A stretch of 64,000 bases of DNA, taken from the NCBI GenBank assembly GCA_017621815.1, contig JAGASK010000013.1, positions 1 to 64,000 on the forward strand. Reading direction: 5' to 3'. The notes under the pieces are model-generated. The model was not told the DNA's origin. It ran no database searches and saw nothing but the letters and a program-made list of their open reading frames with translations. The translations under genes were made by a program, and so were the position numbers. This stretch comes from Lachnospiraceae bacterium (GTDB lineage Bacteria; Bacillota; Clostridia; Lachnospirales; Lachnospiraceae). Each line of letters starts with the position of its first letter. Position 1 is the first letter of the stretch. Of the stretch, positions 18,207 through 63,302 are shown one piece after another.

Positions 18207-19262
18207 GTGAAAAATACAATTCTTATTGTTGATGATATGGAAATCAACAGAGTGATATTAGCTGAAGGCTTTAAGGGTGGATATGAAATATTGGAAGCTT
18301 CAAACGGACGGCAGGCCATAGAGATAATAAACAGTAATGAAAATATAGCTGCTGTGCTTTTGGATATGATTATGCCGGAAATGAACGGTATGGATGTTCT
18401 GAGGGAAATGAATAAAAGCGGTAAGATTTTTCATATTCCTGTTTTCATTGTTACTGCTTCAGACAGCGAAAAATTGCTGATGGATGCATATGATTTGGGT
18501 GCAGTGGATATTGTAGCAAAGCCTTTTATGATGAACTTCCTTAAGTGCAGAGTTGATAATATTATTGAATTATACAGGCACAGAAATGATTTGGAGGATA
18601 TCGTCAATGAGCAGGTTGAACGTTTGAACAGCCTGAACCAGTCTATGGTGGAGACCCTTGCAACCCTGATTGAATTCCGGGATTGTGAATCAGGGGAACA
18701 TGTTAAGCGGATTTGCGGGCTGACGGAAATCCTTATGACAGCAGTGAGCGATATGTATTCGGAGTATCATCTTGCGAAAACTGAAATTGATAAAATTGTG
18801 ACATCATCAGTTTTGCATGATGTGGGAAAAATATCCATTTCAGACGGAATATTGAATAAACCAGGAAAGCTTACCAGGGAAGAATTTGAAATCATGAAGC
18901 AGCATACCGTTAAGGGGTGTGAGATTCTTAAGAAGATACCGGATATTATGGATAAGGATATTTATAATTACAGCTATGATATCTGCAGACATCACCATGA
19001 GAGGTGGGACGGAAGGGGATATCCGGATGGACTTAAAGGTGATGAAATTTCTATCTGGGCGCAGGTAGTGTCTGTAGCGGATGTTTATGACGCACTTACT
19101 TCCCAAAGGGTATATAAAGCAGCTTATGACCATAATACAGCTGTTAATATGATATATAACGGCGAGTGCGGAGTCTTTAATCCCAAGGTATTAACAGCAT
19201 TTGATAAGTCTATGGATAAAATTAAACATAAAAATGCAATGCTGCAGCGGTTGAGCTGTTAA
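18207..19262 (+). CDS. Response regulator with HD-GYP c-di-GMP phosphodiesterase domain
   Basis: A 351-residue RpfG-like protein. The receiver domain (1-120) has IVDDMEINR, phospho-Asp53 in LLDMIMPEMNG, and the switch residues T and K (FIVTAS, VAKPF). A short linker coil leads to the HD-GYP domain (about 145-345), with the HD pair in SSVLHDVGKI and the loop HHERWDGRGYPDGLKGDEI. HD-GYP enzymes hydrolyse c-di-GMP to pGpG and GMP. I choose GTG 18207, with GGAGG five bases upstream, over the frame's first ATG at 18183. It is the probable output of the adjacent phosphorelay. A GGDEF protein at 52404 could supply the opposing activity. Confidence 0.9.
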   Translation: MKNTILIVDDMEINRVILAEGFKGGYEILEASNGRQAIEIINSNENIAAVLLDMIMPEMNGMDVLREMNKSGKIFHIPVFIVTASDSEKLLMDAYDLGAVDIVAKPFMMNFLKCRVDNIIELYRHRNDLEDIVNEQVERLNSLNQSMVETLATLIEFRDCESGEHVKRICGLTEILMTAVSDMYSEYHLAKTEIDKIVTSSVLHDVGKISISDGILNKPGKLTREEFEIMKQHTVKGCEILKKIPDIMDKDIYNYSYDICRHHHERWDGRGYPDGLKGDEISIWAQVVSVADVYDALTSQRVYKAAYDHNTAVNMIYNGECGVFNPKVLTAFDKSMDKIKHKNAMLQRLSC

Positions 19263-40276: not shown

Positions 40277-41638
40277 ATGAATAAGGATCTTACAGTAGGA
40301 AAGCCGGGAACGGTGCTGTGGAAATTTTGCCTGCCTTTGTTCGGCAGTATTATTTTTCAGCAGCTTTATAATATTGCGGACAGCCTTGTGGCAGGAAAGT
40401 TCGTAGGAGAAAATGCGCTGGCAGCAGTGGGAAACAGTTACGAAATAACCCTCATATTTATTGCCTTTGCCTTTGGCTGCAATATCGGATGCTCAGTGAT
40501 AGTGTCGCAGCTTTTCGGTGCAAAAAATTATAAGGATATGAAGACAGCTGTTTACACAACTTTGATTTCCAGCGCTGTTTTATGTGCTGTTTTGATGCTG
40601 GCGGGAATTATAGGCTGCAGAGGTTTATTGAATTTAATACATACGCCGGAAGAAATTTTTGCGGATTCCAGGCTGTATCTTGACATTTATATATGGGGGC
40701 TTCCGTTTTTGTTCTTTTATAATATTGCAACAGGTATTTTTTCAGCTCTTGGGGATTCCAAAACGCCTTTTGTTTTTCTGGCAATTTCATCAACCTCCAA
40801 CATTCTTATGGACATTTTGTTTGTAGCTGCTTTTCATATGGGAGTGGCAGGCGTTGCCTGGGCAACCTTCATCTGTCAGGGTGTGAGCTGTGTACTTTCC
40901 ATTGTAGTTGTGTTTAAGCGGCTTGCGGGAATGCATATCGAGGGAAAAACAGTATGGTATTCCTTTGATATTTTTAAGAAAATTGCCGTTATTGCCATTC
41001 CAAGTATTCTGCAGCAAAGCTTTATTTCCGTGGGAAATATTATTATTCAAAGCGTTATCAACAGTTTCGGAGCAGGGGTAATAGCAGGTTATGCCGCTGC
41101 AGTGAAGCTGAACAATCTTGTCATTACCTCCTTTACGACCCTGGGAAATGGTATTTCCAATTTTACAGCCCAGAATATGGGAGCAGGAATCCTGGCGAGA
41201 GTCAGGGAAGGCTTTAAAGTGGGAGTCAGGATGGTATGGATGATTTGTGTACCCATTGTAATCCTTTATCTGGCAGCAGGAAAAGTCCTGGTGAATTTCT
41301 TTATGAACGAGCCGTCTGCAGTTGCCACAAGTACCGGAGTGCAGTTCCTGTATATTGTAACGCCGTTTTACTTTGTGATATCCCTGAAGCTTGTTGCCGA
41401 TGGAATCTTAAGAGGTGCGGGCCTGATGAAGCAATTTATGATTGGAACTTTTACGGACCTGATTTTGAGGGTGGTGCTGGCTGAGATACTTGCAAGACAG
41501 GTGGGCGCTGTGGGAATCTGGTGTGCATGGCCCATTGGCTGGAGCACTGCCATGATATTGTCGGTTTTGTTTTACAGGAACGGACCGTGGAAAAAGAAAA
41601 AGCAGGTAAATGCTGCCGCCCGGTTTCGTGACAGGTAA
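40277..41638 (+). CDS. MATE family efflux transporter
   Basis: About 453 residues, twelve membrane helices in two halves. Typical MATE pieces are FQQLYNIADSLVAGKFVG, AVGNSYEITLIFIAFAFGCN, and in the second half GNIIIQSVINSFGAGVIAGY and AQNMGAG. The probable start is ATG 40277 behind GGAAGGA, or ATG 40268; the frame continues upstream to 40160 without an RBS. It probably exports cationic or aromatic compounds by Na+ or H+ antiport. It is likely controlled by the divergent LysR gene. Confidence 0.88.
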   Translation: MNKDLTVGKPGTVLWKFCLPLFGSIIFQQLYNIADSLVAGKFVGENALAAVGNSYEITLIFIAFAFGCNIGCSVIVSQLFGAKNYKDMKTAVYTTLISSAVLCAVLMLAGIIGCRGLLNLIHTPEEIFADSRLYLDIYIWGLPFLFFYNIATGIFSALGDSKTPFVFLAISSTSNILMDILFVAAFHMGVAGVAWATFICQGVSCVLSIVVVFKRLAGMHIEGKTVWYSFDIFKKIAVIAIPSILQQSFISVGNIIIQSVINSFGAGVIAGYAAAVKLNNLVITSFTTLGNGISNFTAQNMGAGILARVREGFKVGVRMVWMICVPIVILYLAAGKVLVNFFMNEPSAVATSTGVQFLYIVTPFYFVISLKLVADGILRGAGLMKQFMIGTFTDLILRVVLAEILARQVGAVGIWCAWPIGWSTAMILSVLFYRNGPWKKKKQVNAAARFRDR

Positions 41639-58394: not shown

Positions 58395-58438
58395 CATAAA
58401 TTGTTGACGGCATAAAGGGTTTGTATAGGGAGACTTTA

Positions 58439-60535
58439 ATGAGAATCGTAATTTTCGGCGGAACAGCGGAAGGAAGGCTTTTGGCGGAAAGCTTCCGGGG
58501 AACGGAACTGGAACTTCATATTTGTGTGGCAACAGAGTATGGCGCATCCCTGCTTCCAAAGAGGGAAAACATCGTTGTGCATATGGGACGTATGCAGGAA
58601 GAGGAAATGGAAGACTTTTTAGCTGAGATTTCCCCTTCCTATTGTCTTGACGCCACCCATCCTTATGCTGCCAGAGTAACGGAAAATATTCGGAGAGCCT
58701 GTGAAATACAGAAAATTCCATATATCAGAATTTACCGTAAGGAGGAAGACACTTCGGAGTTTGCCTCTGTGCGTAAGGAAGAAGGAACTTCAGAATTTGC
58801 TTCTGTACGGAATGTGGAAGAAGCTGCAGGCTTTTTGCAGGATACCACAGGCAATATTCTGATCACTACAGGCAGTAAAGAGCTTGAGAAATACAAAGTG
58901 ATTCCGGAATACACCAGGCGGTGCTTTGCCAGAGTGCTGCCGACGGTATCTGTCCTTGAAAAATGTGCGGAACTTGGTTTTGAGGGCAGAAATCTGATAG
59001 CCATGCAGGGTCCGTTTAATGAGGAAATGAATTATGCCCTGATGAAGCAATGTGATATTAAATGGATAGTGACTAAGAATTCGGGAAAAGAAGGAGGCTA
59101 TCAGGAAAAGTGTGAGGCGGCTCTTCGTGCAGGTGTGAATATTCTTGTGGTGGAAAGACCAAAGGAGTGTCTTGCAGGCGGGAAGGATACCGGTGAACCG
59201 GGAACGGACGAAGAAACTGCCGAAAAAACAGCCGCACAGGAAAAGGTAATGAATCTGCCCCGGGCAATTTCCTTTTTGAAGCAGTTCCTTCCGGCATCTG
59301 AGGCAGAAAAAAGAAAGGTGTATCTTATCGGCATGGGTCCCGGAAATCCGGAGCTTTTGACGGAGGAAGCCCGGAAATGCATTCAAAAAAGTCAGGTGCT
59401 GATAGGTGCACAGCGAATGCTGGATATCAGCAGGGCAGCTGTAAAGGAAGCAGGAGAAAAGCCTGTTTTTAAAAGCTATTTAAAAGAAGAAATTGCAGAC
59501 TTTTTAAGGGAACATACTGAATATCTTCAGGCAGCAGTCCTTTATTCCGGCGATGTGGGATTTTATTCCGGAGCAAGGGGAATGAAGGAGCTCTTAACTG
59601 ATTTTCAGGTACAGGAGGTTTCCGGCATTTGTTCCCCCGTTTATTTCTTAAACAAGCTGGGAATACCCTGGGATGAAACACTGCTTGCAAGCTGTCATGG
59701 AAAACAAATCAATCTGATACCTCTTATTAAAACACATAAAAGGGTCTGTGTTCTTTTGGGAGAAAGGGACAGGATTGCCAGGGTCAGCCGCAGCCTTCTT
59801 GCATTTCATATGGATAAGGTGAAAATTACGGTAGGAGAGAGGTTATCCTATCCGGAGGAAAGGATAATTTCCGGCACCGCTGCAGATATGGTATCCGGAG
59901 AGTTTGACAGTCTTTCGGTTGCTTTATTTGAGAACGATGCGGCAGAGAATGGCAGAATCGCGGCAGGAATCAGGGATGAAGCTTTTATCAGGGGAAAAGT
60001 GCCTATGACCAAGGAAGAAATCAGAACGCTTTCCCTGTCTAAGCTGGGGCTTTGGGAAAATGCGGTATTATATGATATCGGAGCAGGTACGGGCTCTGTT
60101 TCCATAGAAGCTTCCCTGTGGTGCCCTTCAGGACAGGTCTATGCCATAGAAAAAAAGCCTGAGGCAGCAGCGCTGATAAAGGAAAATAAAATCCGCTTTC
60201 AGGCGGAAAATCTGGAAATTATAGAAGGTACGGCGCCTGAATGCCTGAAGGAGCTGAAGGAGCCTGACTGTGTGTTTATCGGGGGAAGCAGCGGAAGGCT
60301 GATTCCCATTATCAGAGAAGTGAGAAAGAAAAATCCTTCTGCCCGGTTTGTGGTGAACGCCGTTACACTGGAGACCATGTCGGAAATAAGCCGGATAAAG
60401 GAGGAATTTCCGGAATACCGGGAAATGGAAGTAATACAGGTGAATGTGGCAAGAAGCAGAAGCCTTGTGGGATATCAGTTGATGAATGCGGAAAATCCTG
60501 TGATGATTGCTTCTTTCGGCCCTGTTTCGGGATAG
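58439..60535 (+). CDS. cbiJET: Triple fusion: precorrin-6A reductase CbiJ + C5/C15 methyltransferases CbiE and CbiT
   Basis: A 698-residue protein. Residues 1-285 are CbiJ/CobK: IVIFGGTAEGRLLAE, CLDATHPYAARVTENI, ITTGSKELEKY and NLIAMQGPFNEEMNYALM. Residues 292-500 are CbiE: VYLIGMGPGNPELLTEEARK and VLYSGDVGFYSGARG. Residues 520-698 are CbiT: MTKEEIRTLSLSKLGL, then YDIGAGTGSVSIEASLW and VFIGGSSGRL. Each is usually a separate gene or a CbiET pair. One chain can thus reduce precorrin-6A, methylate C5 and C15 and decarboxylate. ATG 58439 has AGGGAG six bases before it. A 36-bp tandem duplication lies in the CbiJ part. CbiC (the next step) is not in this window. Confidence 0.92.
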   Translation: MRIVIFGGTAEGRLLAESFRGTELELHICVATEYGASLLPKRENIVVHMGRMQEEEMEDFLAEISPSYCLDATHPYAARVTENIRRACEIQKIPYIRIYRKEEDTSEFASVRKEEGTSEFASVRNVEEAAGFLQDTTGNILITTGSKELEKYKVIPEYTRRCFARVLPTVSVLEKCAELGFEGRNLIAMQGPFNEEMNYALMKQCDIKWIVTKNSGKEGGYQEKCEAALRAGVNILVVERPKECLAGGKDTGEPGTDEETAEKTAAQEKVMNLPRAISFLKQFLPASEAEKRKVYLIGMGPGNPELLTEEARKCIQKSQVLIGAQRMLDISRAAVKEAGEKPVFKSYLKEEIADFLREHTEYLQAAVLYSGDVGFYSGARGMKELLTDFQVQEVSGICSPVYFLNKLGIPWDETLLASCHGKQINLIPLIKTHKRVCVLLGERDRIARVSRSLLAFHMDKVKITVGERLSYPEERIISGTAADMVSGEFDSLSVALFENDAAENGRIAAGIRDEAFIRGKVPMTKEEIRTLSLSKLGLWENAVLYDIGAGTGSVSIEASLWCPSGQVYAIEKKPEAAALIKENKIRFQAENLEIIEGTAPECLKELKEPDCVFIGGSSGRLIPIIREVRKKNPSARFVVNAVTLETMSEISRIKEEFPEYREMEVIQVNVARSRSLVGYQLMNAENPVMIASFGPVSG
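58739..58810 (+). repeat. 36-bp in-frame tandem duplication in the CbiJ domain
   Basis: Two units (58739-58774 and 58775-58810) encode KEEDTSEFASVR and KEEGTSEFASVR. They differ at several mostly synonymous positions, so the duplication is not recent. It lies in a surface loop region after IPYIRIYR. Confidence 0.9.
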
Positions 60536-60540
60536 GAGCC

Positions 60541-60836
60541 GGAGGGCAAAAGGCATTATTTAAAGTTGTGTCCGGCATTCAGCACAAAACTTTTGCCCTT
60601 ACTCCAAATTGCGGATATAACATTTTCTAAATGTTCTGTGTAAAGGCTTGAAAACGGACGCAACCGGCCGAAATTCGCCATCCATGGCTCACTTTCGGCC
60701 TTTCATCGGCGTCCTGCCGCTGAATTGCTGGCAGGATACAGAACATTAAGAAAATATAATATCCTTCATTAGTCGCAACTGCAAAAAGTTTTGTGCAGGA
60801 TGCCGGTAACTACTTTAGATAAAACTTTTGCCCCCC
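60541..60836 (+). repeat. Roughly 300-bp fold-back (long imperfect palindrome) element in the cob cluster
   Basis: The left arm from 60541 matches the reverse complement of the right arm from 60836. Outer ends GGAGGGCAAAAG and CTTTTGCCCCCC are paired. CCGGCATTCAGCACAAAACT (60572-60591) matches AGTTTTGTGCAGGATGCCGG (60787-60806). GGATATAACATTTTC and AATGTTCTGT (60613-60640) match ACAGAACATT and GAAAATATAATATCC (60738-60763). The centre is a hairpin, GGCCGAAA (60666-60673) with TTTCGGCC (60693-60700). No ORF or B12 box is inside. It resembles a MITE-like element or a very large RNA hairpin; no target-site duplication was found. Confidence 0.75.
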
Positions 60837-60908
60837 GAATCAGGAGAGGTGATTGTGAAGCGGTGAGTTTGAAATCTTTAGAAAGATAAGAAAGGAATGG
60901 TTATAGGA

Positions 60909-63302
60909 ATGAGCAAAGCCATGCCGAGAATTTTATTTGCGGCTCCCAAAAGCGGCAGCGGAAAAACGATGATTACCTGCGCAGTGATAGAGCTGTGCAA
61001 AAGGAGAAACTTAAAAACAGCTTCTTTTAAATGCGGGCCGGATTATATAGACCCCATGTTCCACAGAAAGGTGCTGGGCATCCCTTCCGGCAATCTTGAT
61101 ACCTTTTTTACCGATGAGAAGACTACAAGATATCTTCTTTCAAAAAAGGCAAGGCAGGCGGATATTACCATACTGGAAGGGGTTATGGGCTATTATGATG
61201 GTCTTTCCGGAACCAGTGAAAGGGCAAGTACCTATGAAGTGGCATGGGTTACAAAAACTCCGGTAATTCTTGTTGTGGACGGGAAAGGCGCCAGTGTTTC
61301 CCTGGCAGCGGTCATTAAGGGTATCATGGAATACCGGAAGGACAGCGGCATTAAGGGAATTTTGCTTAACCGTGTTTCCGCAGGCTTTTATGACAGGCTG
61401 AAGACTCTTATTGAAAAGGAATGCCGGGTGCCTGTGCTTGGATTTATGCCGGAACTTAAGGATTTGACGGTGCCATCAAGGCATCTTGGACTGATTGCTC
61501 CTGAAGAGATGGAAGCATTTCATGAGTGGATTCAGAAAACAGCGGATACGCTTGAAAAAACAATAGATTTTAAGCAGCTTTTTGCCATAGCGGAAGGGGC
61601 GGAAGAATTAGAGGAGGAAGAGCCTTCCATAAAGAAGCTTACCGGAAAGGTGAGAATAGGAATTGCAAGAGATGAAGCCTTTTCTTTTTATTATTCCGAA
61701 AATCTGCAGCTGCTTGAAAAAATGGGTGGGGAAATCGTTACTTTTTCGCCTATCCATGATAAGCAGCTGCCGGAAGGGCTGGACGGACTGATTTTAGGCG
61801 GCGGATATCCGGAAATTTATGCAAAAGAACTGGAAGAGGCAGGGGAAATGCGCAGTGCCGTAAAAGAAGCCTGCCTTGCCGGAATGCCTGTCCTTGCCGA
61901 ATGCGGCGGATTCATGTACCTGCAGAAGGAACTTCAGATGTCGGATGGCAGTGTTCATGAAATGGCGGGGGTTTTAAACGGCGGGATTTTTCCTACCGGG
62001 AAGCTGTGCAGATTCGGATATATAGAAGCTTCCGCTCTTACTCCGGGTATATTGGGAGAGGCGGGAAGCAGTATAAAAGGGCATGAATTTCATTATTTTG
62101 ACTGCTCCATAAACGGAGCTGCTTTCAGTGCCCAAAAGCCCCTTGCAGGTTCTTCTTATCCCTGTATGGTGCATACCGCCTCCATGGCAGCAGGCTTTCC
62201 TCATTTTTACTATTACAGCAATCCGGATATGCTGTATCATTATCTGGAAAGCTGCCGGAGCTTTCGGGCAGGGAGGCTTGCCAAAAAGCACTGGGATGAT
62301 ATAGCAAAACCCATTGACAGTCTGGGACTTTTGGAGGATATGACAGTAAAACTCTGCCGCATCAAGGGCGAAGAAACGCCTTATGATTTATCTAAAAAAG
62401 CCCTGCTTGTTCTTTGCGCTGACCATGGTGTAGTGAAGGAGGGAGTTACCCAGACAGACAGCTCCGTGACGAAAATTGTCAGCGAGAATTTTGCAAAAGG
62501 AATGTCTTCCGTGAATTATATGGCAAAAACTGTGGGAGTAGATGTTTATACGGTCGATATGGGAATAAACGGACCCTGTTATCCTGATAAGGAATTGAAA
62601 ACAGGAGCCGTTATAGACAGAAAAGTTGCAAAGGGCAGCAGCAATCTTGCCGAAGGACCCGCTATGACCCCCACGCAATGCAGAGCGGCTGTTGAAACGG
62701 GAATAGAGCTGGTCGGCGAATTAAAGAAGATGGGTTATACCATAGTGGCAACGGGAGAAATGGGAATCGGAAATACTACTCCTACCAGCGCCCTTGCAGC
62801 AGTATTTTTAAACCTGCAGCCGGAAGCGGTTACAGGTAAGGGAGCCGGGCTTTCTAAAGAAGGAATCAGCAGAAAATGTCAGGTGGTTTTAAGGGCAGTA
62901 AACAGGGTAAAGGAAAAAGGGCTGACAGACCCTATGGATATTCTTGCAGAAGTGGGAGGCCTTGAAATTGCTGCCATGGCAGGAGTTTTTCAGGGCGGAA
63001 TCAAGTACAGGATGCCCATAGTCATCGATGGCGCAATTTCCTGCGTGGCAGCACTTGCAGCCTTTAAAATAGACTGCCGTGCGGCGGATTTTATGCTGGC
63101 TTCCCATCAGTCCGAAGAGGTGACGGGAAAACTTGCCCTGAAAGCCCTTTCGCTGAAAGCCCCTGTTCATGCCGGAATGTGCCTGGGGGAAGGCAGCGGG
63201 GCAGTGGCCTTATTTCCCCTTCTTACTATGGGGATGGAGGTCTATAAGAATATGGGAAGCTTTTCGGAATATCAGATTGAAGCTTATACCAGATTTTGCT
63301 AG
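60909..63302 (+). CDS. cbiA-cobT: Fusion of cobyrinate a,c-diamide synthase (CbiA) and CobT phosphoribosyltransferase
   Basis: About 797 residues. Residues 1-450 are CbiA: ILFAAPKSGSGKTMITCAVI (P-loop), FKCGPDYIDPMFH, LEGVMGYYDG, and a glutamine amidotransferase half with LILGGGYPEIYAKEL and LAECGGFMYL (catalytic Cys). Residues 455-797 are CobT: DHGVVKEGVTQTDSSVT, VDMGINGPCYPDKEL, TGEMGIGNTTPTSALAAV and LGEGSGAVALFPLL with the catalytic Glu. CbiA amidates the corrin a and c side chains; CobT activates the lower-ligand base. The start is uncertain between ATG 60897 (RBS abutting) and ATG 60909. Confidence 0.9.
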   Translation: MSKAMPRILFAAPKSGSGKTMITCAVIELCKRRNLKTASFKCGPDYIDPMFHRKVLGIPSGNLDTFFTDEKTTRYLLSKKARQADITILEGVMGYYDGLSGTSERASTYEVAWVTKTPVILVVDGKGASVSLAAVIKGIMEYRKDSGIKGILLNRVSAGFYDRLKTLIEKECRVPVLGFMPELKDLTVPSRHLGLIAPEEMEAFHEWIQKTADTLEKTIDFKQLFAIAEGAEELEEEEPSIKKLTGKVRIGIARDEAFSFYYSENLQLLEKMGGEIVTFSPIHDKQLPEGLDGLILGGGYPEIYAKELEEAGEMRSAVKEACLAGMPVLAECGGFMYLQKELQMSDGSVHEMAGVLNGGIFPTGKLCRFGYIEASALTPGILGEAGSSIKGHEFHYFDCSINGAAFSAQKPLAGSSYPCMVHTASMAAGFPHFYYYSNPDMLYHYLESCRSFRAGRLAKKHWDDIAKPIDSLGLLEDMTVKLCRIKGEETPYDLSKKALLVLCADHGVVKEGVTQTDSSVTKIVSENFAKGMSSVNYMAKTVGVDVYTVDMGINGPCYPDKELKTGAVIDRKVAKGSSNLAEGPAMTPTQCRAAVETGIELVGELKKMGYTIVATGEMGIGNTTPTSALAAVFLNLQPEAVTGKGAGLSKEGISRKCQVVLRAVNRVKEKGLTDPMDILAEVGGLEIAAMAGVFQGGIKYRMPIVIDGAISCVAALAAFKIDCRAADFMLASHQSEEVTGKLALKALSLKAPVHAGMCLGEGSGAVALFPLLTMGMEVYKNMGSFSEYQIEAYTRFC

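Follow-up and report, generated by a model that had tools for sequence, protein, structure and literature searches.

A fold-back element in a Lachnospiraceae cobalamin operon has an RF01731 core and appears to be a resident copy of a dispersed palindromic repeat

The window analyzed here is the whole 64,000-nucleotide stretch of DNA from a Lachnospiraceae bacterium (assembly GCA_017621815.1, contig JAGASK010000013.1, positions 1 to 64,000 of the forward strand). In this window, two fused genes of a cobalamin (B12) operon are separated by a gap of 361 bp that holds a fold-back element. The features of the locus are as follows.

58421..60535, + strand: upstream gene, a CbiJ-CbiE-CbiT fusion (domain search)
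60540..60837, no strand assigned: whole fold-back element, arms and core (folding, inverted repeats)
60540..60602, no strand assigned: outer arm, left on the + strand (inverted repeats, arm comparison)
60784..60837, no strand assigned: outer arm, right on the + strand, complementary to the left arm (inverted repeats)
60606..60771, minus strand: RF01731 TwoAYGGAY core, matched at 116 bits from model position 1 to 168 of 168
60702..60724, minus strand: core hairpin 1, loop AGGAC closed by GGC/GCC, with the GGA at 60714-60712
60677..60688, minus strand: tip of core hairpin 2, loop AUGGAU (ANGGAN) closed by GCC/GGC
60897..63302, + strand: downstream gene, a CbiA (cobyrinic acid a,c-diamide synthase)-CobT fusion (domain search)

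The original prediction, made from the sequence alone, held that the gap between cbiJET and cbiA-cobT is nearly filled by one imperfect palindrome of about 300 bp, with paired outer ends, paired inner blocks and a central GGCCGAAA hairpin, and that it contains no B12 box. Its coordinates were correct to within a few bases. When folded as RNA, positions 60530-60850 gave -132.1 kcal/mol (z -9.85) and none of 100 dinucleotide shuffles was as good; the same was true of 100 shuffles for the DNA folding (-75.5, z -8.67). The best of 796 sliding 321-nt segments, taken in 80-nt steps through the whole 64 kb, reached -118.1. Three inverted repeats were detected: 60540-60552 with 60825-60837 (13 nt, 92% complementary), 60544-60594 with 60784-60834 (51 nt, 78%), and 60586-60639 with 60738-60791 (54 nt, 74%). 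The central hairpin lies at 60666-60700. No Rfam cobalamin riboswitch was found between the two genes; the only one in the window (RF00174, 33785-33983 on the + strand, 100.7 bits) lies about 27 kb upstream of the fold-back.

What the original prediction overlooked is that the core of the palindrome is a known Rfam family, RF01731, lying antisense to the B12 operon. The Rfam covariance-model search matched it over the full length of the model at 116 bits, against a gathering cut-off of 43, and we regard this identity as nearly certain. The AYGGAY loop is present as such in hairpin 2, and hairpin 1 has a shorter loop in which the GGA is kept. According to the portions of the literature consulted here, RF01731 was first described from the human gut, gammaproteobacteria, and Clostridiales as probably an RNA and probably not cis-regulatory (PMC2864571); in December 2014 CsrA binding was predicted from its loop motifs and its poorly conserved external stem was remarked upon (PMC4333381), and Rfam places it in the Csr-Rsm binding clan, CL00106 (PMC5753348). 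The fold-back resembles the Rfam family in that its core is a full-length member, but Rfam models the core only, and the private, co-changing outer arms, the dispersal to 78 copies, the empty sites, and the doublets described below do not figure in the excerpts consulted. Within one paper library, the excerpts naming TwoAYGGAY or RF01731 mention neither dispersal nor private arms nor a co-occurrence with CsrA. Excerpts of the literature on MITEs in Lachnospiraceae and on long inverted repeats in clostridia likewise contained nothing about RF01731.

To what extent is the element repeated? The window's own genome has a single RF01731 copy, and the arms of the fold-back had no meaningful second match anywhere in it. 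Among relatives the core is widespread, being carried by 17 of 37 genomes of the genus (16 over the cut-off) at very uneven copy number, and by 65 of 397 sampled genomes of the family, the window's own genome being included in both counts. Note that the family survey scored at most six candidates per genome under stricter filters, so that its copy numbers are lower bounds and it may have overlooked some carriers. With fuller scoring we counted at least 78 copies in genome G035 (150 of 178 candidates scored), at least 49 in G009, at least 45 in G020 (150 of 151 scored), and at least 39 in G011; G005 holds at least 34. G035, G009, G020, and G011 are metagenome assemblies, in which palindromes, and above all inversions, can be misassembled. 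Most of the 80 stretches listed, out of 119 found by a pattern scan of named genomes, were in Lachnospiraceae metagenome assemblies; the isolate Eubacterium sp. AF22-9 was among the matches listed, and those in unrelated phyla were taken as chance. Plasmid and phage collections searched with one genus copy gave no match. The 80 copies compared with their neighboring ORFs lay in unrelated intergenic sites with no orientation bias. The multiple copies anticipated for the fold-back were thus found in its relatives but not in its own genome, and the RF01731 palindrome is very probably a dispersed, mobile-type repeat.

The surroundings of the fold-back also differ from those in relatives. Whereas the window has a gap of 361 bp, the corresponding junction ranged from an overlap to 50 bp at all 14 relatives' loci read (13 genomes; 18 loci were found), these values varying with the start codon chosen (26 bp in the nearest relative, G022). 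With so tight a junction in these relatives, the hairpin is no conserved part of the operon. The window copy would then be sitting in what is a tight cbiET-cbiA junction elsewhere. The relatives share only 46-66% protein identity at this junction, and therefore it is not a nucleotide-level footprint. Five further sites are known in both states.

Site 118402: occupied in G009; empty in G011
Site 72045: occupied in G011; empty in G009, G020, and G035
Site 18467: occupied in G011; empty in G009, G020, G007, and G035
Site 56622: occupied in G020; empty in G007 and G035
Site 81134: occupied in G011; absent from G009

The differences between empty and occupied sites that had been proposed as a check therefore exist, at the window junction and at these five sites. 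The footprints are not clean, since about 55-100 bp adjoining the element are also absent from the empty version at 18467 and 56622, and filler sequence is found in the flanks at other sites. At site 11042, G009 lacks the element and may hold a scar, and deletion scars occur inside the arms at two further sites in G011. No target-site duplication was visible by eye at 72045, 18467, or 56622, each of which has at least two empty relatives. Site 118402 has an ambiguous 6-bp repeat, GACGTC, which is itself palindromic and thus indistinguishable from an inverted copy. We rejected the idea that the arms are inverted host flank made at insertion, because the empty sites read mostly have no arm sequence and because the arms of the window copy have no meaningful second match in its own genome. 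The exceptions are 118402, which fits a 7-8 bp inverted copy, and 11042, which fits either an inverted copy or a deletion scar.

The outer arms were studied in 113 copies fetched from 10 genomes, mainly the highest-scoring copies and close pairs. The two arms of a copy matched each other (score of at least 10) in 111 of the 113, with a median of 76 bp and a range of 25-193; both copies without matching arms came from G400. When arms were cross-paired as a control (n = 300, from 80 copies), the mean score was 1.5 and the maximum, between related copies, was 38. In a separate set of 52 copies, mostly the best per genome and from 45 genomes, the arms were shorter: 20 scored at least 20 (none of 500 controls did), the median was 15.5, whereas the controls averaged 1.3 and peaked at 18, and seven copies had no match at that register. 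The isolate AF22-9 and the two-contig genome G339 likewise have copies with well-paired arms. The one-contig genome G416 has four copies, one scoring 25 and three weakly at 8-11, two of the latter sharing arm sequence. The arms of the window copy are less perfect than those in the high-copy genomes, and since they are only about 78% complementary, this copy may be an old one, a decayed relic.

Comparison of copies revealed that the arms are largely private to their site and diverge fast. Copies within one genome whose cores are 90-95% identical (n = 15 pairs) had inner and outer arm identities of 0.74 and 0.63, where random is 0.48, versus 0.91 and 0.80 for pairs between genomes with cores at least 95% identical (n = 9, largely orthologues). 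The arms nevertheless change together. At nine orthologous sites of G009 and G011, 81 of 620 arm pairs had changed, 53 on both sides and 28 on one side; 48 of the 53 double changes were still Watson-Crick, and 7.2 doubles would be expected if the changes were independent. The three sites compared with G035 showed the same pattern (51 arm pairs changed on both sides, 18 on one). Among 17 orthologous copies (12 between G009 and G011, five with G035), a count by hand from the strands of flank and element gave three in-place inversions, provided that the assemblies are sound: 28491/348173, 51714/80282, and 62220/185886. At 40883/23923 and 51714/80282 the cores are just 77-78% identical despite orthologous outer arms, which suggests core exchange.

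The published excerpts on template switching between inverted repeats give two marks of the process, homogenized arms and an inverted spacer (PMC8604942; see also PMC8794818). The fold-back family resembles the hairpins maintained in this way (quasipalindrome correction) in its compensatory multi-base changes on both arms and in spacer inversion, and differs from them, as those sources present them, in that the element occurs in many copies, whose arms span 25 to 193 bp. By this analogy, it is likely that the arms are kept paired by template switching.

Is the pairing kept as DNA or as RNA? Selection for RNA pairing alone would be expected to leave more G.U than A.C. The arms showed no wobble bias, their mismatches being 102 of the sense type and 98 of the antisense type among 6026 positions (80 copies), and since the two types are equal, arm pairing is probably kept at the DNA level. 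In the core, 30 G.U and 35 A.C were counted among 3646 cells of the 86 top-ranking genus rows (model R1), a ratio that overstates the absence of wobble bias: two copies are in the set twice, and 19 of the 35 A.C cells fall in one column, without which the ratio is 30:16. A tRNA stem control (36 of 39 tRNAs, mostly from G000 and G011 loci) gave 34 G.U versus 7 A.C of 432, in an imperfect register that leaves 39 of the 432 cells outside the Watson-Crick, G.U, and A.C classes. Among the 43 best-per-genome matches, picked by a covariance-model score that favors G.U, there were 28 G.U versus 7 A.C of 1791 paired cells. For the core, pairing at both the DNA and the RNA level is possible.

Close neighbors among the copies follow a strict orientation. 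Overall, 29 neighbors within 1.5 kb of each other were head-to-head, none tail-to-tail, and one same-strand. In G009, G011, G020, and G035, among the 150 of 211 matches listed, the numbers were 21, 0, and 1; the orientation of neighbors more than 3 kb apart was mixed among the matches listed in these genomes. All eight close pairs among 196 further listed copies from 53 genomes were head-to-head, as were four more (loci L062, L085, L090, and L124). The doublet spacers, compared by eye, seem unrelated. The single same-strand close pair is one of the in-place inversions, and frequent inversion in place sits uneasily with a strict head-to-head rule. The main RF01731 subfamily is joined in head-to-head pairs by a second, divergent one, which scores about 50-70 bits with model R1 (L127 and L160-L165 in G035 and G020).

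In these respects the copies recall REPINs, which are described in the excerpt cited as inverted doublets (PMC3116915): both are intergenic palindromes in inverted doublets of fixed orientation. The RF01731 unit differs in its size of about 300 bp, rather than the 20-40 bp or so given for REPs in the cited portion of PMC3733652, and in its private arms, and in the genus it shows no Y1/RAYT dependence. We rejected a Y1/RAYT link because Y1_Tnp (PF01797), the sole transposase family tested, was not found in 8 of the 17 genus carriers, the window's genome included. With MITEs the palindrome shares its shortness, lack of coding sequence, inverted repeats, variable copy number, and empty sites, but it has no clear target-site duplication and its arms differ between copies. 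Most copies have private ends; an arm-end motif, TGTCATTT, lies in both arms 77-83 bp from the core in a minority of 12 of 113 copies (10 independent sites), compared with 0 of 113 in the control. The suggestion of a MITE-like mobile element is thus largely borne out by multicopy dispersal, empty sites, and this motif of a minority of copies, but the element is single-copy in the window's own genome, and a clear target-site duplication and a transposase partner were not found at the sites and for the family examined.

The most constant feature of the core hairpins is the GGA in both loops. Of the 111 copies aligned, which come from ten genomes plus the window, 103 have it in loop 1 and 106 in loop 2; it is also present in 36 and 40, respectively, of the 43 best-per-genome matches. 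The CsrA SELEX consensus is RUACARGGAUGU, with an ANGGAN hexaloop, in the part of PMC7652899 consulted, and the typical loops ACAGGACGU, ACAUGGAUGU, and CCAUGGAUGG match it, or nearly so. We consider it more likely than not that the RF01731 core binds CsrA. We then compared the distribution of the element with that of CsrA (PF02599), which was found in 62 of 65 carriers versus 148 of 332 non-carriers in the family sample (146 counting only matches over the cut-off; odds ratio 26, Fisher p 4e-16, kinship being ignored). CsrA without the element is common, while the element without CsrA is rare. The three carriers of the family sample with no CsrA match are G204, G354, and G393; within the genus, G005 and G035, whose assemblies are 89% and 86% complete, have none either. 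The genus alone showed no association (15 of 17 carriers versus 18 of 20 non-carriers), and a reading of CsrA as irrelevant, drawn from those data, was overturned by the family-wide search. In the window's genome, CsrA was matched twice, each time at 63.6 bits and in a longer frame (G000:C17:213159-213308 and 219681-219830); in most congeners the frame measures about 72 residues and the match scores about 86-92 bits.

The sponge RNAs CsrB, CsrC, and RsmX-Z resemble the RF01731 copies in having hairpins with GGA in ANGGAN-type loops, but the RF01731 unit has two sites only, many dispersed copies, and no promoter or terminator signature. Neither promoters nor terminators were enriched around the 111-113 copies, and a dedicated sRNA gene with its own promoter and terminator was rejected since there was no enrichment 5' of the copies. 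Strong promoter-like scores on the same strand were commoner 3' than 5' of the copies (17 of 111 versus 6 of 111). In the window itself there was no promoter or terminator enrichment and no convincing promoter reading into the core (one match, 1.2 expected).

One explanation for the fold-back is local: a cis-acting hairpin selected here to uncouple or attenuate cbiA-cobT. Its position would fit, directly between operon genes that abut or overlap in relatives, but RF01731 lies in unrelated intergenic sites of many genomes with no orientation bias to ORFs, and the element is missing from all 14 cob junctions read in relatives; we consider this explanation very improbable. Relative to the B12 operon, the CsrA-type loops lie antisense. 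Since the operon transcript bears their complement, any effect on the B12 genes would have to come from the hairpin itself, by stalling or RNase processing, or from an antisense transcript.

The family could instead be an ordinary structured CsrA-sponge sRNA of the CsrB/RsmZ type that has spread by duplication only, the DNA palindrome being a by-product of selection for RNA pairing. The ANGGAN-type loops, the co-occurrence with CsrA in the family, the excess of G.U in the best-per-genome matches, and, in the cited excerpts, the Csr-Rsm clan placement and the published prediction (PMC4333381) all speak for it. Dozens of copies per genome with private arms, however, are unlike an sRNA, the arms have no wobble bias, the core G.U of the genus rows (30 of 3646) is far below that of the tRNA stems, and there is no promoter or terminator signature, which together make this reading unlikely. 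Alternatively, the fold-back may be a plain selfish DNA element of the MITE or REPIN type, whose GGA loops are read as DNA by the mobilizing enzyme, so that the CsrA link is a phylogenetic coincidence (for example, through motility genes). This agrees with the dispersal and empty sites, the TGTCATTT motif, the strand-symmetric arms, and the doublets that recall REPINs as excerpted above; the strong CsrA co-occurrence speaks against it, as do the absence of a target-site duplication at the sites read and of a transposase partner in the Y1_Tnp search, and we hold it, too, to be improbable.

We lean toward an explanation in which the fold-back is one copy, resident in this operon, of a palindromic repeat dispersed through intergenic sites of Lachnospiraceae-type gut bacteria, with an RF01731 core carrying putative CsrA sites, REPIN/MITE-like spread, and template switching. 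We hypothesize that the element spreads non-autonomously, probably via a hairpin DNA form and using some enzyme. In a resident copy, template switching during replication would write one arm onto the other, so that the palindrome could heal itself while its sequence drifts and the core could flip. A minus-strand transcript would show two ANGGAN-type hairpins and bind a CsrA dimer, and for this reason the family would persist almost only where CsrA exists. That RF01731, filed as a small structured RNA, is a new type of mobile palindrome, with a two-site CsrA decoy, hosts that almost all bear CsrA, spread to dozens of intergenic sites as singlets and strictly head-to-head doublets, no target duplication, and private arms kept paired by template switching, is a tentative and still doubtful proposal; if true, the family would act as a parasite of the genome, or as a dispersed regulator, tied to an RNA-binding protein of its host.

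The orphan family RF01731 gains an identity from these results as a dispersed element with empty sites, and the genome-scale link to CsrA makes a ten-year-old prediction directly testable. The family is also a natural multicopy system in which to watch template switching repair palindromes, and it carries a warning: the Watson-Crick covariation by which RNA structures are ordinarily proven can originate in DNA.

Two minor observations concern the neighborhood of the copies. One gene lies between the members of a wide head-to-head pair in G009 and G011 (L077 2199-3026, L097 2272-3108), and its translation suggests a trypsin-like protease beside rpsT; a transposase between wide doublets was rejected on this account. 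A second multicopy repeat, with GCTACGTTA / TAACGTAG, lies in the left flank of L111 (G011:C4, near 131663) and has at least 15 matches listed in G009, and motifs like it adjoin several RF01731 copies.
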